Origin: Haloarcula marismortui ATCC 43049
Lineage (GTDB): Archaea > Halobacteriota > Halobacteria > Halobacteriales > Haloarculaceae
Direction of reading: 5' to 3'
Length of the DNA: 64,000 bases
Assembly: GCF_000011085.1 (NCBI RefSeq)
Contig: NC_006395.1
Location: forward strand, 186,001-250,000
The position numbers and the translations under genes were made by a program. Within the stretch, counting starts at the first letter, position 1. Each line of letters begins with the position of its first letter. Shown in pieces: positions 56,112 to 64,000 of the stretch. A model generated the notes under the pieces. It searched no databases, was not told the origin of the DNA, and was given only the letters and a program-made list of their open reading frames with translations.

Positions 56112-56990
56112 TCAGCCGAGCCGCGTCCGCAACTGAGACCCGAGCCAGTCGCTCGTGACGACCAGCGCAAACACGGCAAGGATGGCGGTCGAGAGTTTTC
56201 CGTACTGCAACCGCTGAATGGTGATGACGAGATAGTATCCGACGCCACCCGCACCCACGAACCCGAGGATGGCGGCCGACCGAATGGTACACTCCCAGCG
56301 GTACAGCGTGTACGAGGCGATTGTGGGCGTCACCTGCGGAACCATCCCGTGACAGACCGCCTGCAGGCGAGTCGCACCACTTCCGGCAACCGCCTCGGTC
56401 GTCATCGGGTCCGTGTCTTCAAGGAAGTCGGCGTACAGTTTTCCCAGGACACCGGCGTTGTGAACTGCCAGCGCGAGAACGCCCGCAAACGGGCCGAGGC
56501 CGATAGCGGTAACGAACAGGAATCCCCAGACGATGCCGGGGACGGAGCGCAGAAAGCTGAGCACGGTTCGGCTGGCGTGATAGAGACCGCGTCCGACGGC
56601 AATACGGCCGGCTGAAGCGTTTCTGTATAGCGGGCCACGATGGGTGACGGTGGCGGCACTGGTCAGACCGAGTGGGACGGCGAGCGCGACAGCGAGTGTG
56701 GTTCCGACAACGCTGATAGCCAGGGTTTCGACGATAGCCCACAGCAGGCCATCCCGAAGGCTTCGTCCCAGCAGGTATTCACGGCCAGTCTCCGGTGGGA
56801 AGCCCTCGGCAACGAACGCGCCCATCTGCTCACGAGCACCGGCGGCGAACAGGGCCATCGGATCCACTTCGGCGATCCACGCCGCAGTCGCTAGAATGAC
56901 ACAGCCGCCGAGGAGTGTCGTGAGCTGGCCTTTCGAGAGTCCGGTCGCAGCGTGCTGGGCGGCATCTGGACCGCTATATTTTTCAGACAT
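56112..56990 (-). CDS. phnE: PhnE-like ABC transporter permease
   Basis: A 292-residue permease from the ATG at 56990. Five to six membrane spans are visible ([68 protein letters not shown]). The cytoplasmic coupling loop [25 protein letters not shown] matches PhnE permeases. It overlaps the ATPase gene by eight bases. The family imports phosphonate or phosphite, but paralogues transport other oxyanions, and no phosphonate enzyme is adjacent here. Confidence 0.84.
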
Positions 56991-57804
56991 ACCACGGAAC
57001 CGGGATATCGCTCTCTTTCTCTGTTCCCGTTCGTTCGGCGTCGGTACCCGGCGTGGATGCTCCCGCCGCAAAGAGGGCATCCAGTTGGTCGTCGGTCACC
57101 GCCCGTGCGGGCGTATCAAACCTGACTCGGCCATCCGCCATGCCGACAATCCGGTCGAAGTGCTCCAGTGCCAGGTCGACCTCGTGAAGGACGGTGACCA
57201 GCAGTTCCCCGTCGAGGGCGGCGTCGAGAACGTCGATAACGTTCCGACGGGAGCTGGGGTCGAGGTTCGCTGTCGGTTCGTCGGCCAACACGACCTCGGC
57301 ATCCTGCATGAGGGCCCGTGCGAAGGCGACCCGCTGGCGTTCGCCGGCACTCAACGATTTCACGGGGACATCAGCACGGCCAACTAGCCCGACAGCATCG
57401 AGTCGTTCGAGGGCTGGCTCTGGATGCTGGGGCAGCAGTGGCTCGATGAAGCCACGGAGCCAGGACAGGGCTCCGAGGCGTCCAGTGAGGACGTTCGACA
57501 GTGCTGTCCGCCGGTCCACGAGCGTCTCCCCCTGATACGCAAGCGTCGCGGTCGAACCCGTACTGCTGCTCCCGTCGAAGCGAACTGTTCCAACATCAGG
57601 CTGCAACGCGCCGGCTGCCAGCCTGAGAAGCGTGGTTTTGCCGGCTCCCGACGGGCCGATGACGGCGACCCGTTCACCGGCTTCCAGTTTGAGCGAGACA
57701 TCCCGTACCGCAACTTTCCCGCCGAATCGCTTGGTGACACTATCGAAAACGAGCCCCTGGCCTGATTGTTTGCCCTCTGGCCGCGCTGTGTACTTGCTCT
57801 TCAC
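56983..57804 (-). CDS. phnC: PhnC-like ABC transporter ATPase
   Basis: A 273-residue ATPase from a GTG at 57804, chosen because this GTG overlaps the stop of the binding-protein gene (GTGA) and gives a normal N-terminus; the open frame further upstream is spurious. Walker A is GPSGAGKTT, the signature is [16 protein letters not shown], Walker B is [13 protein letters not shown] and the switch His is in [10 protein letters not shown]. It powers uptake with the permease downstream. The C-terminal extension of about 40 residues is specific to this gene. Confidence 0.87.
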
Positions 57805-58676
57805 CCGTCGCCTCCCCGTTCGATGCCAGCCATCTCGACGGCCGTTTCCAGCGAGGTGAACGCGTCGTGGCTCACCCCGACGTACTGGTCGACAGCCTGC
57901 TGGTCGAGAATGTCCGTTCGCCCTTTCGAATCGAGGGTCGTGAACGCCGTCTGCACAGCGTCCGCTGTCGTTGCCTCTAGCGACGGGGCAACGGCCCACG
58001 GGTAATCAGGGAAACCGGGGGTCCGCCAGAGCTCTTGTACCCCATCAACAGCGTCCTCTGCGAGTAGTCTGGCGTAGATGCGGGCGTTCAGGGCCCCGAC
58101 GACACCGCTCGTCCGGCCGACTGTCGCTGCCGTTGCGTCGTGGGCACCGACGTGTGTGACCTGTGCGAACGCGTCGGTGTGTAGGCTGTACTCTGTCCGA
58201 AGGTGGTACGTCGGCATCACGGTTCCACTGGTCGAGAGCGGGTCGCCAAACACCAGTTCGGTCTCGCTTGCAGTCTCGACTACGTCTGCCATTCCTGTCA
58301 GGTCACTATCTGACGGGGCGATGAACACGGAGTGCCACTCTGTCTGTCCATTCCGTGACCCGACGGCGACTGGCTTTGCGCCTGCTCGATGATGCGCCAG
58401 AATGTACGATACACCACCGTAATAGGCAATATCGACCTGGCCCGCGACCATCGCCTGTACCATCCCGGCATAGTCAGCCGCTGTGCGTAGCTCGGTCTCG
58501 ACGTCAAGTTCGGTCGCCAGATACGCCGCGAGTTCGGTGTTCTGTTCGATGGCGGTATCCGGGTCCACGTCGGGCACGATACCGACCGTCAGCGTCGGCG
58601 TTGCTGTCCCTCCGAGACAGCCTGACAGTGAGAGCGCTGCCGCTGTTCCCAGGAATTCACGCCTCGTGGGTCGCAT
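57801..58676 (-). CDS. phnD: PhnD-like Tat lipoprotein, ABC substrate-binding
   Basis: A 291-residue protein from the ATG at 58676; an ATG at 58721 would add 15 residues. [20 protein letters not shown] is a twin-arginine signal with lipobox. The body is a type-2 PhnD-like binding fold ([53 protein letters not shown], the anion-site pattern). It captures the ligand on the outer face of the membrane. It overlaps phnC and follows ridA on the same strand. PhnD relatives bind phosphonate, phosphite or other oxyanions, so substrate should not be assumed. Confidence 0.83.
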
Positions 58677-59178: not shown

Positions 59179-59796
59179 TTACAGGCTGTCGCGGCGGTCG
59201 GTGAACTCGGCGAGGTCAGCATCGGTATCGATATCCCAGTGGACGCCGGGGTCCGAAACCTCGATGAACGCTGTCTTCTCGGTGGTCTCGATGATATCTC
59301 GACCGCCGCGGTCGCCGGAGACAGAGGCGAGCGAATCGAAATGGCAGTTGTCGAAAAGCACCGGATTACCCCGTCTCCCCTCGTGCTCGGGAACAACAAC
59401 GGTTGCCGTTCCTGTACGGTACGCTTCGAGAAGCTCCTCGATGGTTTCGACGCGTACAAACGGCATATCGCCCAGCAAGAACAGGGCGGCGTCCCAGCCG
59501 GCCGAACGGGCAAACTCGACTCCATGTCGAACCGACGCACTCTGGCCGGTCGCGTACTCGTCGTTATGCTGAACTGAGAGCGAGAGGCCATCCAGCGCAG
59601 CAGCGACGGCCACTTTTTCGTGGCCGAGGACGGCGACAGCGTCCGACAGCGATGACTTGCAGGCGGTTTCGGTCACCTGTCGGACGACTGCTTTCCCATC
59701 GATAGTCGCCAGCAGTTTGTTACCCGACTCGTATCGAGAACTCCGCCCAGCAGCGAGGATGACACCGCCGACTCTGGTCCGATGTTGACCGCTCAT
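59179..59796 (-). CDS. mocA: MocA-like molybdopterin nucleotidyltransferase
   Basis: A 205-residue protein of the MobA/MocA family. GVILAAGRSSRYESGNKLL is the nucleotide-binding loop, followed by LFLLGDMPFV and the RRGNPVLFD motif conserved in MocA and its relatives. MocA makes the cytosine dinucleotide form of the molybdenum cofactor for xanthine-dehydrogenase-type enzymes. It lies 46 bp after yqeC and 32 bp before ridA on the same strand. Such a mocA-like gene commonly accompanies selenium-dependent molybdenum hydroxylases. Confidence 0.83.
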   Translation of the reverse strand: MSGQHRTRVGGVILAAGRSSRYESGNKLLATIDGKAVVRQVTETACKSSLSDAVAVLGHEKVAVAAALDGLSLSVQHNDEYATGQSASVRHGVEFARSAGWDAALFLLGDMPFVRVETIEELLEAYRTGTATVVVPEHEGRRGNPVLFDNCHFDSLASVSGDRGGRDIIETTEKTAFIEVSDPGVHWDIDTDADLAEFTDRRDSL

Positions 59797-59842
59797 ACTA
59801 CCCCTCGTCTCGCAACACTACCGGCTGTGCCCTCGCAGTCAG

Positions 59843-60625
59843 TCATCGCTGCTTCTCCTCTTGCACATCCGATCTTGAGACCTCTTCACAGATATCCGAC
59901 GCGAACGATGTGATGACGCCCCGAGAACACCGCTCTGTCTGTGAAAGCGCGTGGGTGAGCACGTCAGTAGCGATACGCCGCTGTGGTTCGGTATCCGCTT
60001 TGTTGACTAGCGGTATCACAGACGCCTCGGCTGGCGCGTTTCGGAGGCCACCGTTGGGATGTGTGAGCACTGTCCCGACAGCCGCCGCAGTAATCGTGTC
60101 GCCCACACGAAGGCCGGTGATATCCGCGACCCGCTCCGGTCGATGGACCACGTCCGTCGTCAGCGCTTCACCGACGGCGGCGACTGAGGCGACCGGGACG
60201 ACGTGGGTCGCTGTACTCGGGACGACTGGCTCTCCGTCGCTAGGCGCTTTGAACTCCCGCTTGCGTGCCCCGTCAGCCTTGACGAGAAGCCAGTCGAAGA
60301 GTCCGGCATCGGATAGCTGCTCCATCACACTCGCCTCGAATCCGCGAACCTTCCGGTTGACTCGCGCCGGATCGGCTACCTCCTCGCGAGCGACAGCAAT
60401 CGGCGGGTCGCGCGTCTTGAGGTCGGTACGCCACCCGTCCGGGTCGGTGAGCGTCAGAGGCAGGTTGGGCGGGGGCGGCATCGCCGTCGTTGTCGTGTAG
60501 CCTACGTCGTATCCCTCGTCGGTCCCCTCAACGGTCAGTTTTCCCATCGCGGATTTCTTTCCGCCGGCCCCGACAAAGGCGACAGCGGCGCTGGAACCCA
60601 GGCCCAGCGCAGCAGCCAGATCCAT
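59843..60625 (-). CDS. yqeC: YqeC, selenium-dependent molybdenum-hydroxylase accessory protein
   Basis: A 260-residue protein from the ATG at 60625; upstream frame to 60769 is spurious. It opens MDLAAALGLGSSAAVAFVGAGGKKSAM, the P-loop-like start typical of YqeC. WLLVKADGARKREFKAPSDGEPVVP is the family's second signature, then VVHRPERVADITGLRVGD. YqeC is, with YqeB, a marker of the trait that loads a labile selenium atom onto certain molybdenum hydroxylases. It is divergent from tusA, 94 bp away, and heads the yqeC-mocA-ridA-phnDCE gene series. Confidence 0.87.
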   Translation of the reverse strand: MDLAAALGLGSSAAVAFVGAGGKKSAMGKLTVEGTDEGYDVGYTTTTAMPPPPNLPLTLTDPDGWRTDLKTRDPPIAVAREEVADPARVNRKVRGFEASVMEQLSDAGLFDWLLVKADGARKREFKAPSDGEPVVPSTATHVVPVASVAAVGEALTTDVVHRPERVADITGLRVGDTITAAAVGTVLTHPNGGLRNAPAEASVIPLVNKADTEPQRRIATDVLTHALSQTERCSRGVITSFASDICEEVSRSDVQEEKQR

Positions 60626-60719
60626 ACGCTCGCTCCGCGCAAGACACACAAATAGCTTACCGGCGCAACCACGTGTGGCGGCGATAGCGTTTTTGTGATC
60701 TAATGGCACACGTACCGGT

Positions 60720-60968
60720 ATGGCCCGCGTAGACGTTCGTGGTGAAATCTGCCCCCGGCCAGCGCTCATTGTCCGGCAGGCGCTTTCGGACCTCGATACC
60801 GGCGAGACGCTCGTCGTTCGAGGTGATTACCCGCCGGCCGAAGAGAACCTCCGGCGGATGTGTACGACGCACGGCATCGACGTGACGACCGCGGAGACTG
60901 CTGGCGAGTCCGACGAGTTCGAACTGGAACTTCGGGTGACCGAGATGGCGTCGCTATCGGAGGCCTGA
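60720..60968 (+). CDS. TusA/YedF-like sulfur-carrier protein
   Basis: An 82-residue protein of TusA size. The N-terminal strand VDVRGEICPRPALIVRQAL contains the active-site C-P-x-P cysteine; the rest (GETLVVRGDYPPAEENLRRMC) fits the TusA two-layer fold. TusA carries persulfide; a relative, YedF (TusA joined to DsrE), is a known companion of selD. The next gene, selD, starts two bases after this stop codon, so they are co-translated. It probably carries selenium or sulfur for the pathway. Confidence 0.82.
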   Translation: MARVDVRGEICPRPALIVRQALSDLDTGETLVVRGDYPPAEENLRRMCTTHGIDVTTAETAGESDEFELELRVTEMASLSEA

Positions 60969-60970
60969 GT

Positions 60971-62011
60971 GTGGGACCCGACGCGGCGACTGACGATGAC
61001 GACGAGACGACGCGCCTGACGGAGTACACGGAACTCCACGGCTGTTCCTGCAAAGTTGGCCAGAGCGACCTCGATTCGCTGCTCGCCGATGCCGGCCTCA
61101 CCGGTGAGAGCGACGCGTTGCTGTTCGGCATTGGCGAGGACGCCGCTGCGCGGAAACTTACCGACGACCTCGCGCTGGTCTCGACGGTGGATTTCTTCAC
61201 ACCCATCGTCGACGACCCGTACGACTTCGGCCGTATCGCCGCCTGCAACGCCGCTAGCGATGCCTTCGCTACGGGTGCGGTCGAGAATGTCGACTGCTTG
61301 GTCGTCCTCGGACTCCCACGAGCACTAACCGAGAGCGCAGCGCCAATTCTCGCCGGCATGGCTGACGCACTGGACGCGATGGATGGCGTCATCGCCGGCG
61401 GTCACACCATTATGAGTCCGTGGCCCTTCGCCGGCGGGGCCATCTCGGCAACGGGGCGTCCCGACGCCCTCCTCACCTCGCAGGGAGCCAGTCCCGGCGA
61501 CCGGCTCTACCTGACCAAACCGCTCGGGACACAGCCAGCTATGGGGGCGACCCGCGTGACTGACGAGCAGTTCGTCGAGACGGTCACCGACGCCACTGAC
61601 CGGCCGCTCGACACCATTGCTTCGGAGGCTATTGCGTGGATGACCACACCGAACCGGGACGCAACAGTCGCGTGCCGCGAATACGCGACAGCCGCGACTG
61701 ATATTACCGGCTTCGGCCTCGTCGGGCAGAGCCGCGTGGTGGCCGCCCGCTCGAACGTCGGTATCGAACTGACACATCTCCCGGTCATCACGGGAACGCC
61801 TGCCCTCTCGACGCTTTTCGGATACGGGCTGACTGCGGGCGAGAGCGCGGAGACCAGCGGGGGACTGTTCGTCTCCGTCCCGCCGACTGCGACTGACGCC
61901 GTCGAAACGGCGTTCGACGACGCCGGCGTGTTCTACCGTGCTGTCGGACGTGTTACGGCCGGACGCGGTGTCTCACTTTCGGACCCGACTATCGAAGAAG
62001 TCAGCCGCTAA
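60971..62011 (+). CDS. selD: Selenide, water dikinase (selenophosphate synthetase)
   Basis: A 346-residue SelD from a GTG at 60971, which follows the tusA stop immediately; the open frame up to 60860 overlaps tusA and is rejected. The catalytic loop HGCSCKVGQSDL has Cys and Lys at the active site, with Cys in place of selenocysteine. GIGEDAAARKL, TVDFFTPIVDDPYDFGRIAACNA and AGGHTI follow as in all SelDs. It makes selenophosphate from selenide and ATP. No selA, selB, sepSecS or ybbB (tRNA selenation) gene is in the window. Confidence 0.92.
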   Translation: MGPDAATDDDDETTRLTEYTELHGCSCKVGQSDLDSLLADAGLTGESDALLFGIGEDAAARKLTDDLALVSTVDFFTPIVDDPYDFGRIAACNAASDAFATGAVENVDCLVVLGLPRALTESAAPILAGMADALDAMDGVIAGGHTIMSPWPFAGGAISATGRPDALLTSQGASPGDRLYLTKPLGTQPAMGATRVTDEQFVETVTDATDRPLDTIASEAIAWMTTPNRDATVACREYATAATDITGFGLVGQSRVVAARSNVGIELTHLPVITGTPALSTLFGYGLTAGESAETSGGLFVSVPPTATDAVETAFDDAGVFYRAVGRVTAGRGVSLSDPTIEEVSR

Positions 62012-62028
62012 CGTCGATTAAGAGCCTT

Positions 62029-63609
62029 CTACCGCAACCGGAGCACTGCCTCTAGCACGCCACCGCCGAGACACAGTGCTTTGTCGGAGATTTTCGTTGG
62101 GTCGACAGACTCGCCACGAGGGTCGACATCGCCGAGTTTGGTGCCCTCGCTGACACTGAGGCCGCCGTGAACTAGGCCGCGAACCAGTCCATCTATCTCG
62201 GTTTCGACCGGCCGGTCGCCGACGGTGCCGACCACGTCGCCGGCTGTGACACTATCGCCGATGGCGACCGTCGGGGTCCACTCACCGTCTGTCGGGGCGC
62301 GAAGCACCCGCTCGTGAGTGTAGCCACGGCGTTCGCCGGGCTCGCCGTCGTATTCGCTTGCCGTCCCGTCGTAGAACACACGGCCGAGTTCGTGCCCGCG
62401 GTCCGTTTCGACGACTGCGTCTACGTCCTCTCCGGCCTCGAAACCGGGCCCCATCCCGACCACCACGTCGGCGTCTTCCCGGCGCGTACCGGTGTCGAAC
62501 GCCCCTTTCGCCATAATCGCGTCGACAAGGACCGCCGCGTCGAGGTCGTCAGCGACAGTCGCCTCGGGGTCGACGAGTACCGGCACGACATCGTCGGCGA
62601 GCAGTTCGAGTGCCTCGTCGATGTCCGCTGCTGCACGGCCAGTGACTCCTTCGACTTCCACCTCGTCTTCGTACAGCGCCGCGCCGAAGGCGACCGCCCG
62701 CCGGACGACTGTCGGTTGGTCGACTTCGGTGACGATGACCGGAAAGCCGGCCTGCTGAAGCCGATAGACGACGCCGCTGCCGAGGTCGCCGCCACCGCGG
62801 ACGACGACGAGGTCGTCGAGATTCAGGCGCGTCGCCCGCGCACCGGTGGCGTCGTGGCGGTCCATGGTGACCTCGGCGAGAACCGAGAGCGCGACGGCGG
62901 CCGGCCCGCTCCCGCCGAGGTCGAGTCCCACCGGTGTCTGGACCCGGCTGAGGTCCCGACGGGCGTACCCGGACTCGGCGAGCGAATCGAGCACGTGGTT
63001 GGCCTTTGTCTCGCTTGCGACGAGGCCAACGTAGCCAGCCTCGCCGTCCAGCGCTGCGGCGACGGCAGCCTGATCGAACGTCCCGCTCCGCGTCGCGACG
63101 GCCACGGCTGTCTCTGTCCCCATCGGCAGGTCACCGAGCGCCTCTCCGTATTCGCCGTGAATCACGTCCGTCTCGTCGGGGAACTGCGTCGGGTCGGCGT
63201 ACGCCTCGCGGTCGTCGACCACGGTGACGGCGTAGCCCAGTCGCTCCGCCAGTGGGGCCAGTTCGACGCTGATGTGGCCGCCGCCGGCGATGTAGAGCTG
63301 TGCCTGTCCGCGAACATGGTCGATGAACACGTCCATCTCGCCGCCACAGACCATGCCCGTGTTGCCGCCGCGTTCGAGTTCGTACGTCCGGATACCAGGG
63401 TCGTCGGCTCCCGAAAGCACTGACCGGGCGTCCTGTACGGCGAGATGCTCGACCGTGCCGCCACCGATGGTTCCGTACTCTTCGTCAGCGGTGACGATCA
63501 TCTTGTCCCCCACGTCCCGCGGTGCGCTGCCGTCCTTGCGGACGATAGTCAGGAGCGCCGCCGGCTTTCCTTGCGCTGCCAGTTCATCAAGCTGTTCGAA
63601 CAGGCTCAT
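62029..63609 (-). CDS. XdhC-YqeB fusion, selenium-dependent molybdenum hydroxylase maturation
   Basis: A 526-residue protein from the ATG at 63609; upstream frame is read-through of tusB. Residues 1-245 are XdhC: the N-terminal LLTIVRKDGSAPRDVGDKM...GTIGGGTVE and a Rossmann domain LYIAGGGHISVELAPLAERLG. From residue about 260 begins YqeB (EF2563-type): VVRGGGDLGSGVVYRLQQAGFPV, PVLVDPEATV, MGPGFEAGEDVDAVVETDRGHELGRV and the terminal LCLGGGVLEAVL. XdhC sulfurates molybdenum cofactor; YqeB serves the selenium trait. A joint protein suggests one handler for the cofactor's S or Se ligand. It overlaps tusB (ATGA). Confidence 0.85.
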   Translation of the reverse strand: MSLFEQLDELAAQGKPAALLTIVRKDGSAPRDVGDKMIVTADEEYGTIGGGTVEHLAVQDARSVLSGADDPGIRTYELERGGNTGMVCGGEMDVFIDHVRGQAQLYIAGGGHISVELAPLAERLGYAVTVVDDREAYADPTQFPDETDVIHGEYGEALGDLPMGTETAVAVATRSGTFDQAAVAAALDGEAGYVGLVASETKANHVLDSLAESGYARRDLSRVQTPVGLDLGGSGPAAVALSVLAEVTMDRHDATGARATRLNLDDLVVVRGGGDLGSGVVYRLQQAGFPVIVTEVDQPTVVRRAVAFGAALYEDEVEVEGVTGRAAADIDEALELLADDVVPVLVDPEATVADDLDAAVLVDAIMAKGAFDTGTRREDADVVVGMGPGFEAGEDVDAVVETDRGHELGRVFYDGTASEYDGEPGERRGYTHERVLRAPTDGEWTPTVAIGDSVTAGDVVGTVGDRPVETEIDGLVRGLVHGGLSVSEGTKLGDVDPRGESVDPTKISDKALCLGGGVLEAVLRLR

Positions 63610-63851
63610 ACGAAGCTCTTGACCTCCTGTTCGACCAGGCGTTCGACTACGGCGTCGTAGGATATCCGGTCGATGTCCGGCGGCAGCGAGACACCACGCA
63701 CGGCCACGTCTCTCGCGACCGCTGAAACTGGTGCGTCGATATCCGGTGTGAGGTAGACGCCGTCCTGAATCAGGACGACGTGCGCCTCGGGGTCCCCGGC
63801 GGCAGTACGCAGTCCGATTTCTGCCATCGGCTTGTCGATGAGATATAGCAT
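63606..63851 (-). CDS. TusB/DsrH-like sulfur-relay subunit
   Basis: An 81-residue protein with the DsrH/TusB start MLYLIDKPMAEIGLR and the conserved HVVLIQDGVYLTPD segment. DsrH with DsrE and DsrF forms the ring that passes persulfide from TusA. The active-site Cys found in many relatives is absent, as in TusB. It overlaps the XdhC-YqeB gene by four bases and follows the partial DsrE-like gene by two bases. Confidence 0.75.
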   Translation of the reverse strand: MLYLIDKPMAEIGLRTAAGDPEAHVVLIQDGVYLTPDIDAPVSAVARDVAVRGVSLPPDIDRISYDAVVERLVEQEVKSFV

Positions 63852-63853
63852 TG

Positions 63854-64000
63854 TCAGAAGTCCAGTGTCCGGTCGGCGTCACGGATTCGGGCGGTGACGC
63901 GGTCGTCCGACCAGACGGCCACGTCGTCGGCGATTTCGCTCTCGTCGACACCGCGCTCGGCCATTGCCGCGCCGTCCGCGACCATCTGTCCGTCCTGTTC
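63854..64000 (-). CDS. DsrE/DsrF-like protein, C-terminal part
   Basis: The window ends inside this gene; 48 codons and the stop (TGA, reverse of 63854-63856) are present. The readable part has DGQMVADGAAMAERGV and ends RDADRTLDF. Position two bases ahead of the TusB-like gene and the DsrE-type composition suggest a DsrE or DsrF subunit. The N-terminus and the catalytic Cys lie outside the window, so the call is tentative. Confidence 0.5.
   Translation of the reverse strand, partial: EQDGQMVADGAAMAERGVDESEIADDVAVWSDDRVTARIRDADRTLDF

Follow-up and report, generated by a model that had tools for sequence, protein, structure and literature searches.

Labile selenium on molybdenum hydroxylases has been attributed to a selenium-cofactor trait, the selenium-dependent molybdenum hydroxylase (SDMH) trait, described in 2008 by Haft & Self (PMC2276186) and Zhang (PMC2432076). 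Bacterial support for the trait comes from Enterococcus faecalis, through 75Se labelling (PMC2432076), and from Clostridioides difficile, whose selD and yqeB mutants are impaired on xanthine and urate (PMC11448449); selenophosphate as the source of the labile hydroxylase selenium was called unproven in 2024 (PMC11448449). Among archaea, Lin 2015 limits the trait to Halobacteriales without selenocysteine or selenouridine (PMC5322559). We analysed a window of 64,000 nucleotides from the Dead Sea archaeon Haloarcula marismortui ATCC 43049 (contig NC_006395.1, hereafter C7, 410,554 bases; the window is C7:186001-250000 and a window coordinate is the C7 coordinate minus 186000), together with the whole genome of 4,274,642 bases on 9 contigs. 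The end of the window carries mocA, yqeC, tusA, selD, yqeB and part of a dsrE-dsrF-dsrH block. This locus is, with high probability, a selenium-cofactor maturation module, predicted to place SelD-dependent selenium on two adjacent molybdenum/iron-sulfur (Mo/Fe-S) hydroxylases.

Of the two cases on which the trait was founded, this locus is one, and it was already published in 2008 (Haft & Self 2008, Zhang 2008). The same genes are described as pNG7236 to pNG7246 by Haft & Self (PMC2276186). The table of Zhang 2008 places on H. marismortui pNG700 a MobA-like gene at 245179-245796, HP2 (YqeC) at 245843-246625, a SirA-like gene at 246720-246968, an HP1 (YqeB) fusion at 249609-248032 and hydroxylase subunits at 253850-256300 and 250677-252842 (PMC2432076). 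After subtraction of 186000 these are the genes of the window, the sole difference, at the yqeB end, being the stop codon; the present locus is therefore a correct rediscovery of the founding archaeal case. A first-pass annotation, made from the sequence alone, had noted that an orphan selD was predicted for Haloarcula; this was right but understated, as strain and plasmid are those of the original prediction. In the 2008 table selD spans 247358-248011 (window 61358-62011), which omits the first part with the catalytic CxCK; the RefSeq start is at window 60971. The YqeB of the window is 100% identical to that on plasmid pHMA411 of the same strain, seemingly the same replicon sequenced again. 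H. hispanica also carries this locus.

The four genes on which the first-pass annotation had built its reading (mocA, yqeC, selD and yqeB) are all present and intact. The scores of yqeC, selD and yqeB exceed the curated cut-offs, while mocA finds its best family in TIGR03310 and stays under the equivalog cut-off (Table 1). That annotation did not include tusA, dsrH and dsrF. The SelD active-site motif CxCK (residues 25-28) is invariant in 23 of 23 sequences, as are Cys11 and Cys48 of TusA, whose gene ends two bases before selD. The best NCBIfam match of the tusA product is the N-terminal part of YedF (TIGR03527, 35.6 bits, below the cut-off of 110). On the other strand, dsrE and dsrF overlap by 4 bases, dsrF and dsrH are separated by 2 bases, and dsrH and yqeB again overlap by 4 bases; because these junctions overlap or nearly touch, coupled translation of the four genes is suggested.

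Table 1. Features of the maturation locus and its surroundings (window coordinates, unless marked C7).
Feature	Position	Strand	Evidence and remarks
Phosphonate-type ABC transporter PhnD/C/E	56112..58676	-	TIGR01098 180 bits, over cut-off
mocA (pNG7236), MocA/YgfJ-type molybdenum cofactor nucleotidyltransferase	59179..59796	-	TIGR03310 best family, 150 bits (below cut-off 186); PF12804
yqeC (pNG7237)	59843..60625	-	TIGR03172 207 bits (cut-off 73)
Spacer between the divergent pairs yqeC-mocA and tusA-selD	60626..60719		gene boundaries
tusA/SirA-like (pNG7238)	60720..60968	+	PF01206 60.5 bits; CPRP motif
selD, selenophosphate synthetase (pNG7239)	60971..62011	+	TIGR00476 271 bits (cut-off 125); start as in RefSeq; solved relatives
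yqeB as XdhC-YqeB fusion (pNG7241)	62029..63609	-	TIGR03309 379 bits (cut-off 220), domain ~62035-62808; XdhC domain ~62869-63579; PF13478, PF02625
dsrH/tusB-like	63606..63851	-	81 aa, without cysteine; TIGR03011 22.6 bits and PF04077 23.5 bits, both below cut-off (PF04077 barely)
dsrF/tusC-like	63854..64000, running on to C7:250207	-	PF02635 41.8 bits, over cut-off; without conserved cysteine
dsrE	C7:250204-250575 (outside window)		before dsrF in operon
Two hydroxylase Fe-S/Mo subunit pairs	C7:250677-256871 (outside window)		upstream of dsrE in operon

In the proposed pathway SelD would make selenophosphate, as its family and active site indicate, and the selenium would become a labile ligand of the molybdenum cofactor in the two adjacent Mo/Fe-S hydroxylases. 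Family membership and bacterial work suggest that the N-terminal half of YqeB is an XdhC-type cofactor chaperone acting at insertion and that MocA and YqeC act in cofactor preparation. Between SelD and YqeB, we infer, TusA and DsrEFH most likely hand on the activated selenium or keep it reduced, in a relay that could run over the cysteine of the CPRP motif in TusA and those of the CGLC motif in DsrE, and replace the bacterial fusion YedF. The core of this reading can be regarded as well supported by genomics together with the bacterial experiments. YqeB Cys513 was considered as a selenium carrier and rejected: it is invariant in haloarchaea, yet missing from four bacterial YqeB. The fold model of YqeB is of modest quality (predicted local distance difference test, pLDDT, 73; predicted template modelling score, pTM, 0.51), and meaningful structure matches were obtained for its XdhC half only.

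We then considered whether SelD could serve another described pathway. Searches of the whole genome gave no SepSecS, no SelU, no SelB over cut-off (best match 176 versus 242) and no selenocysteine tRNA (tRNA-Sec) over cut-off. The SelB matches under the cut-off were read as ordinary translation-factor GTPases, and three tRNA-Sec matches under the threshold turned out to be tRNA-Thr, -Arg and -Lys. SelD is thus an orphan with respect to the archaeal genes of selenocysteine synthesis and insertion, tRNA-Sec and SelU; PSTK and bacterial SelA were not searched separately. The first-pass annotation, which had seen no selenocysteine-insertion gene in its interval and had named selenocysteine or selenouridine genes elsewhere as one finding that would overturn its reading, is borne out within this same scope, and its reading of a SelD-dependent hydroxylase maturation without a selenocysteine system agrees with every genomic test that was run.

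The distribution of the genes was determined in 292 Halobacteria genomes, with families called by curated cut-off. YqeB was found in 22 genomes and SelD in 22, and these are the identical 22: 14 of the 15 Haloarcula genomes and 8 others in several families, with a patchy presence inside most genera. Because relatedness makes these genomes non-independent, joint gains or losses effectively number closer to six than to 22, but the agreement is still exact. This co-occurrence extends the statement of Lin 2015 (PMC5322559), and yqeB and selD are a specific marker pair in haloarchaea. The claim of the first-pass annotation that all four genes mark the trait holds for these two; yqeC and mocA mark it weakly in haloarchaea, with yqeC over cut-off in 200 of the 292 genomes, of which 178 or more lack SelD/YqeB. 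A second yqeC lies on the main chromosome of H. marismortui (C8:1174201-1174815; L117, 9163-9882), flanked by open reading frames whose translations resemble MoaA, MobA-type and aldehyde ferredoxin oxidoreductase-type proteins. Considering this wide spread in genomes without SelD and the moaA/mobA-like neighbours, haloarchaeal YqeC probably serves molybdenum or tungsten cofactors in general. The published caution that YqeB and YqeC are to be taken jointly as markers fits this reading, as does the absence of a phenotype for C. difficile yqeC (PMC11448449).

In all 24 loci (those of the 22 genomes plus L083 and L087) the dsrE-dsrF-dsrH block lies directly upstream of yqeB with almost constant distances, and it stays with yqeB also in loci from which the hydroxylase genes, yqeC or mocA have been relocated. 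As the block recurs in 24 haloarchaeal loci, the grouping of these genes is not due to chance. Strong DsrE matches (≥175 bits, ≥64% identity) occur in exactly the same 22 genomes and in none of the 270 others; the next best match is a 34-residue remnant in genome G130, beyond which nothing exceeds ~30 bits. In this SelD-negative genome the remnant (85% identity) stands reversed directly after a hydroxylase gene (L109; G130:C102, 130-2468), an arrangement suggestive of loss of the selenium module there. DsrE cysteines 56, 82, 83 and 86, which include the CGLC motif, are invariant in 23 of 23 sequences, and the conservation alignment shows no conserved cysteine in DsrF or DsrH.

According to Lin 2015, YedF has the motifs CPXP and CGXC and is absent in archaea (PMC5322559). 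The DsrE CGLC aligns with the YedF CGAC, and haloarchaeal TusA and DsrE look like a split YedF. Since the similarity of DsrE to the C-terminal half of YedF is weak (6.9 bits, against a clearer 24.7 bits for TusA versus YedF), the case rests on the motif, the context and the TusA match. YedF in the sense of TIGR03527, with TusA and DsrE in one protein, was not found, TusA alone scoring below the cut-off and DsrE being a separate gene; the TusA/DsrE pair may work like YedF and not be a member of the family. We tentatively propose a haloarchaeal selenium relay in which TusA and DsrEFH, with a YedF-type CGXC, would pass the selenium of selenophosphate to XdhC-YqeB, as a split YedF that is obligatory in the module. 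It is unlikely, although the family is broad, that DsrEFH is a passenger, that is, a general redox or tRNA-thiolation complex in the operon, the remaining module working as in bacteria. Such a role would fit the M. maripaludis TusA/TusD transcripts, which rise under selenium shortage (PMC11097638), and two archaeal YqeB loci outside Halobacteria that show no DsrEFH in the examined stretch. However, DsrE and DsrF are the sole DsrE-family proteins in the whole H. marismortui genome, the strong DsrE matches track YqeB and SelD (22/22 and 0/270), and the block remains beside yqeB when other genes leave.

The two loci outside Halobacteria (L140, G474:C22; L141, G466:C185; G+C 42-46%), which came from a sample across the phylum, have yqeB next to a hydroxylase gene, mocA and an XdhC-like gene, and neither selD, tusA nor dsrEFH was found in the examined stretches. 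The accessible text of Lin 2015 does not mention YqeB outside Halobacteria (PMC5322559).

Xanthine-dehydrogenase-type subunits, which the first-pass annotation had proposed to look for, lie in the yqeB operon just beyond the window end as two pairs of Fe-S and Mo subunits. Three queries for a flavin adenine dinucleotide (FAD) subunit gave no match within C7:216000-295999, a search of limited sensitivity, and the enzymes may be built from just Fe-S and Mo subunits, unlike typical xanthine dehydrogenases. Close relatives of the hydroxylase (60-66% identity) are found in single copy in ~20 genomes without SelD. In the tree, XdhA forms clades A1 and A2 (SelD-positive genomes only) and N (SelD-negative genomes), each behind a fully supported branch.

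These relatives bear on the possibility that the cluster delivers sulfur, with TusA-DsrEFH and XdhC-YqeB sulfurating the molybdenum cofactor and SelD acting on sulfide or being incidental. XdhC serves ordinary sulfurated hydroxylases, and no selenium measurement from archaea was found in the literature. The TusA and DsrEFH families are sulfur carriers in known cases (PMC3397948). We nevertheless judge this explanation improbable. The catalytic cysteine and lysine of SelD are kept in 23 of 23 sequences, SelD occurs in exactly the YqeB-positive genomes, and the C. difficile selD and yqeB mutants have a common phenotype (PMC11448449). Moreover, the ~20 SelD-negative genomes keep the related hydroxylase, several with a nearby XdhC-like gene. 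All of these genomes lack yqeB, selD and an intact dsrE; therefore sulfur maturation does without the module.

Some observations weigh against a selenium module at this locus. Transcription of selD runs towards yqeB, which rules out a transcript common to selD and the hydroxylase genes, a point also made by a referee of Haft & Self in 2008 (PMC2276186); yqeB itself can be co-transcribed with them. A selenium-specific residue signature was sought in the hydroxylase and rejected, since the 23 positions that split A1+A2 from N fall inside the span of the controls (9 and 28). The equivalog cut-offs of TusB, TusC and TusD are not reached (22.6/49.2, 31.9/94.2 and 20.3/89.3 bits); the Pfam DsrE cut-off is reached by DsrE and DsrF, with DsrH just below. 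Finally, no report of an archaeal hydroxylase shown to hold selenium was found in the literature.

SelD could in principle serve another selenium product, of selenosugar or selenoneine type, with the hydroxylases nearby through plasmid history. Selenoneine is made with a SelD-type protein. It is a further bacterial selenium metabolite (Kayrouz 2022, as cited in PMC11097638), but this alternative is very improbable, because selD over cut-off never occurs without yqeB in the 292 genomes and no such genes were recognised among the scanned neighbour proteins, no genome-wide search for selenoneine genes having been made.

The phosphonate-type transporter that precedes mocA also matches the putative selenate binding protein family TIGR04553, at 168 bits and below the cut-off of 250, and carriage of selenate was suggested in 2008 for pNG7234 in this region. 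The transporter is absent within the examined neighbourhood in several SelD-positive genomes and only remnants are present in one (L092), and it is therefore not an obligatory part of the module. Additionally, a xanthine permease, an allantoate amidohydrolase-like and an SsnA-like gene are found nearby; because these purine genes adjoin, the hydroxylases probably act in purine breakdown.

Haloarchaea are a clean system for the trait: selD apparently has no second pathway to serve, the module often resides on secondary replicons, and related species have a close hydroxylase but no selD or yqeB. The DsrEFH link, for which no report was found in the literature (most subscription papers and all supplements being outside reach), gives a concrete candidate for the missing selenium transfer step and is a modest, testable addition to the known trait. 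Beyond the 2008 reports, the exact SelD/YqeB co-occurrence, the DsrEFH block, the non-specificity of YqeC and the separate SelD-negative hydroxylase clade are new.

Compared with the published SDMH trait, the locus is the same, with identical coordinates and no difference in the core genes; dsrE, dsrF and dsrH are absent from the accessible 2008 descriptions (PMC2276186, PMC2432076), and DsrE appears nowhere in that of Haft & Self. With XdhC of sulfurated hydroxylase maturation, the N-terminal half of YqeB is alike in sequence and fold, but an ordinary XdhC has no YqeB domain, to which it is fused here. The TusBCD/DsrEFH relay likewise comprises three small genes arranged E-F-H, whose junctions overlap or are close to zero, and the DsrE/F domains are recognised; in contrast, the haloarchaeal DsrE has a YedF-like CGLC, DsrF and DsrH are without conserved cysteine, and all are under the equivalog cut-offs. 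The E. faecalis cluster xdh-mocA-sclA-selD-yedF-DUF3343-yqeC-yqeB has the same core genes around an orphan selD. There, YedF unites TusA and DsrE, yqeB lacks an XdhC part and a selenocysteine lyase occurs, whereas H. marismortui has TusA and DsrE as two proteins, with DsrF and DsrH in addition.

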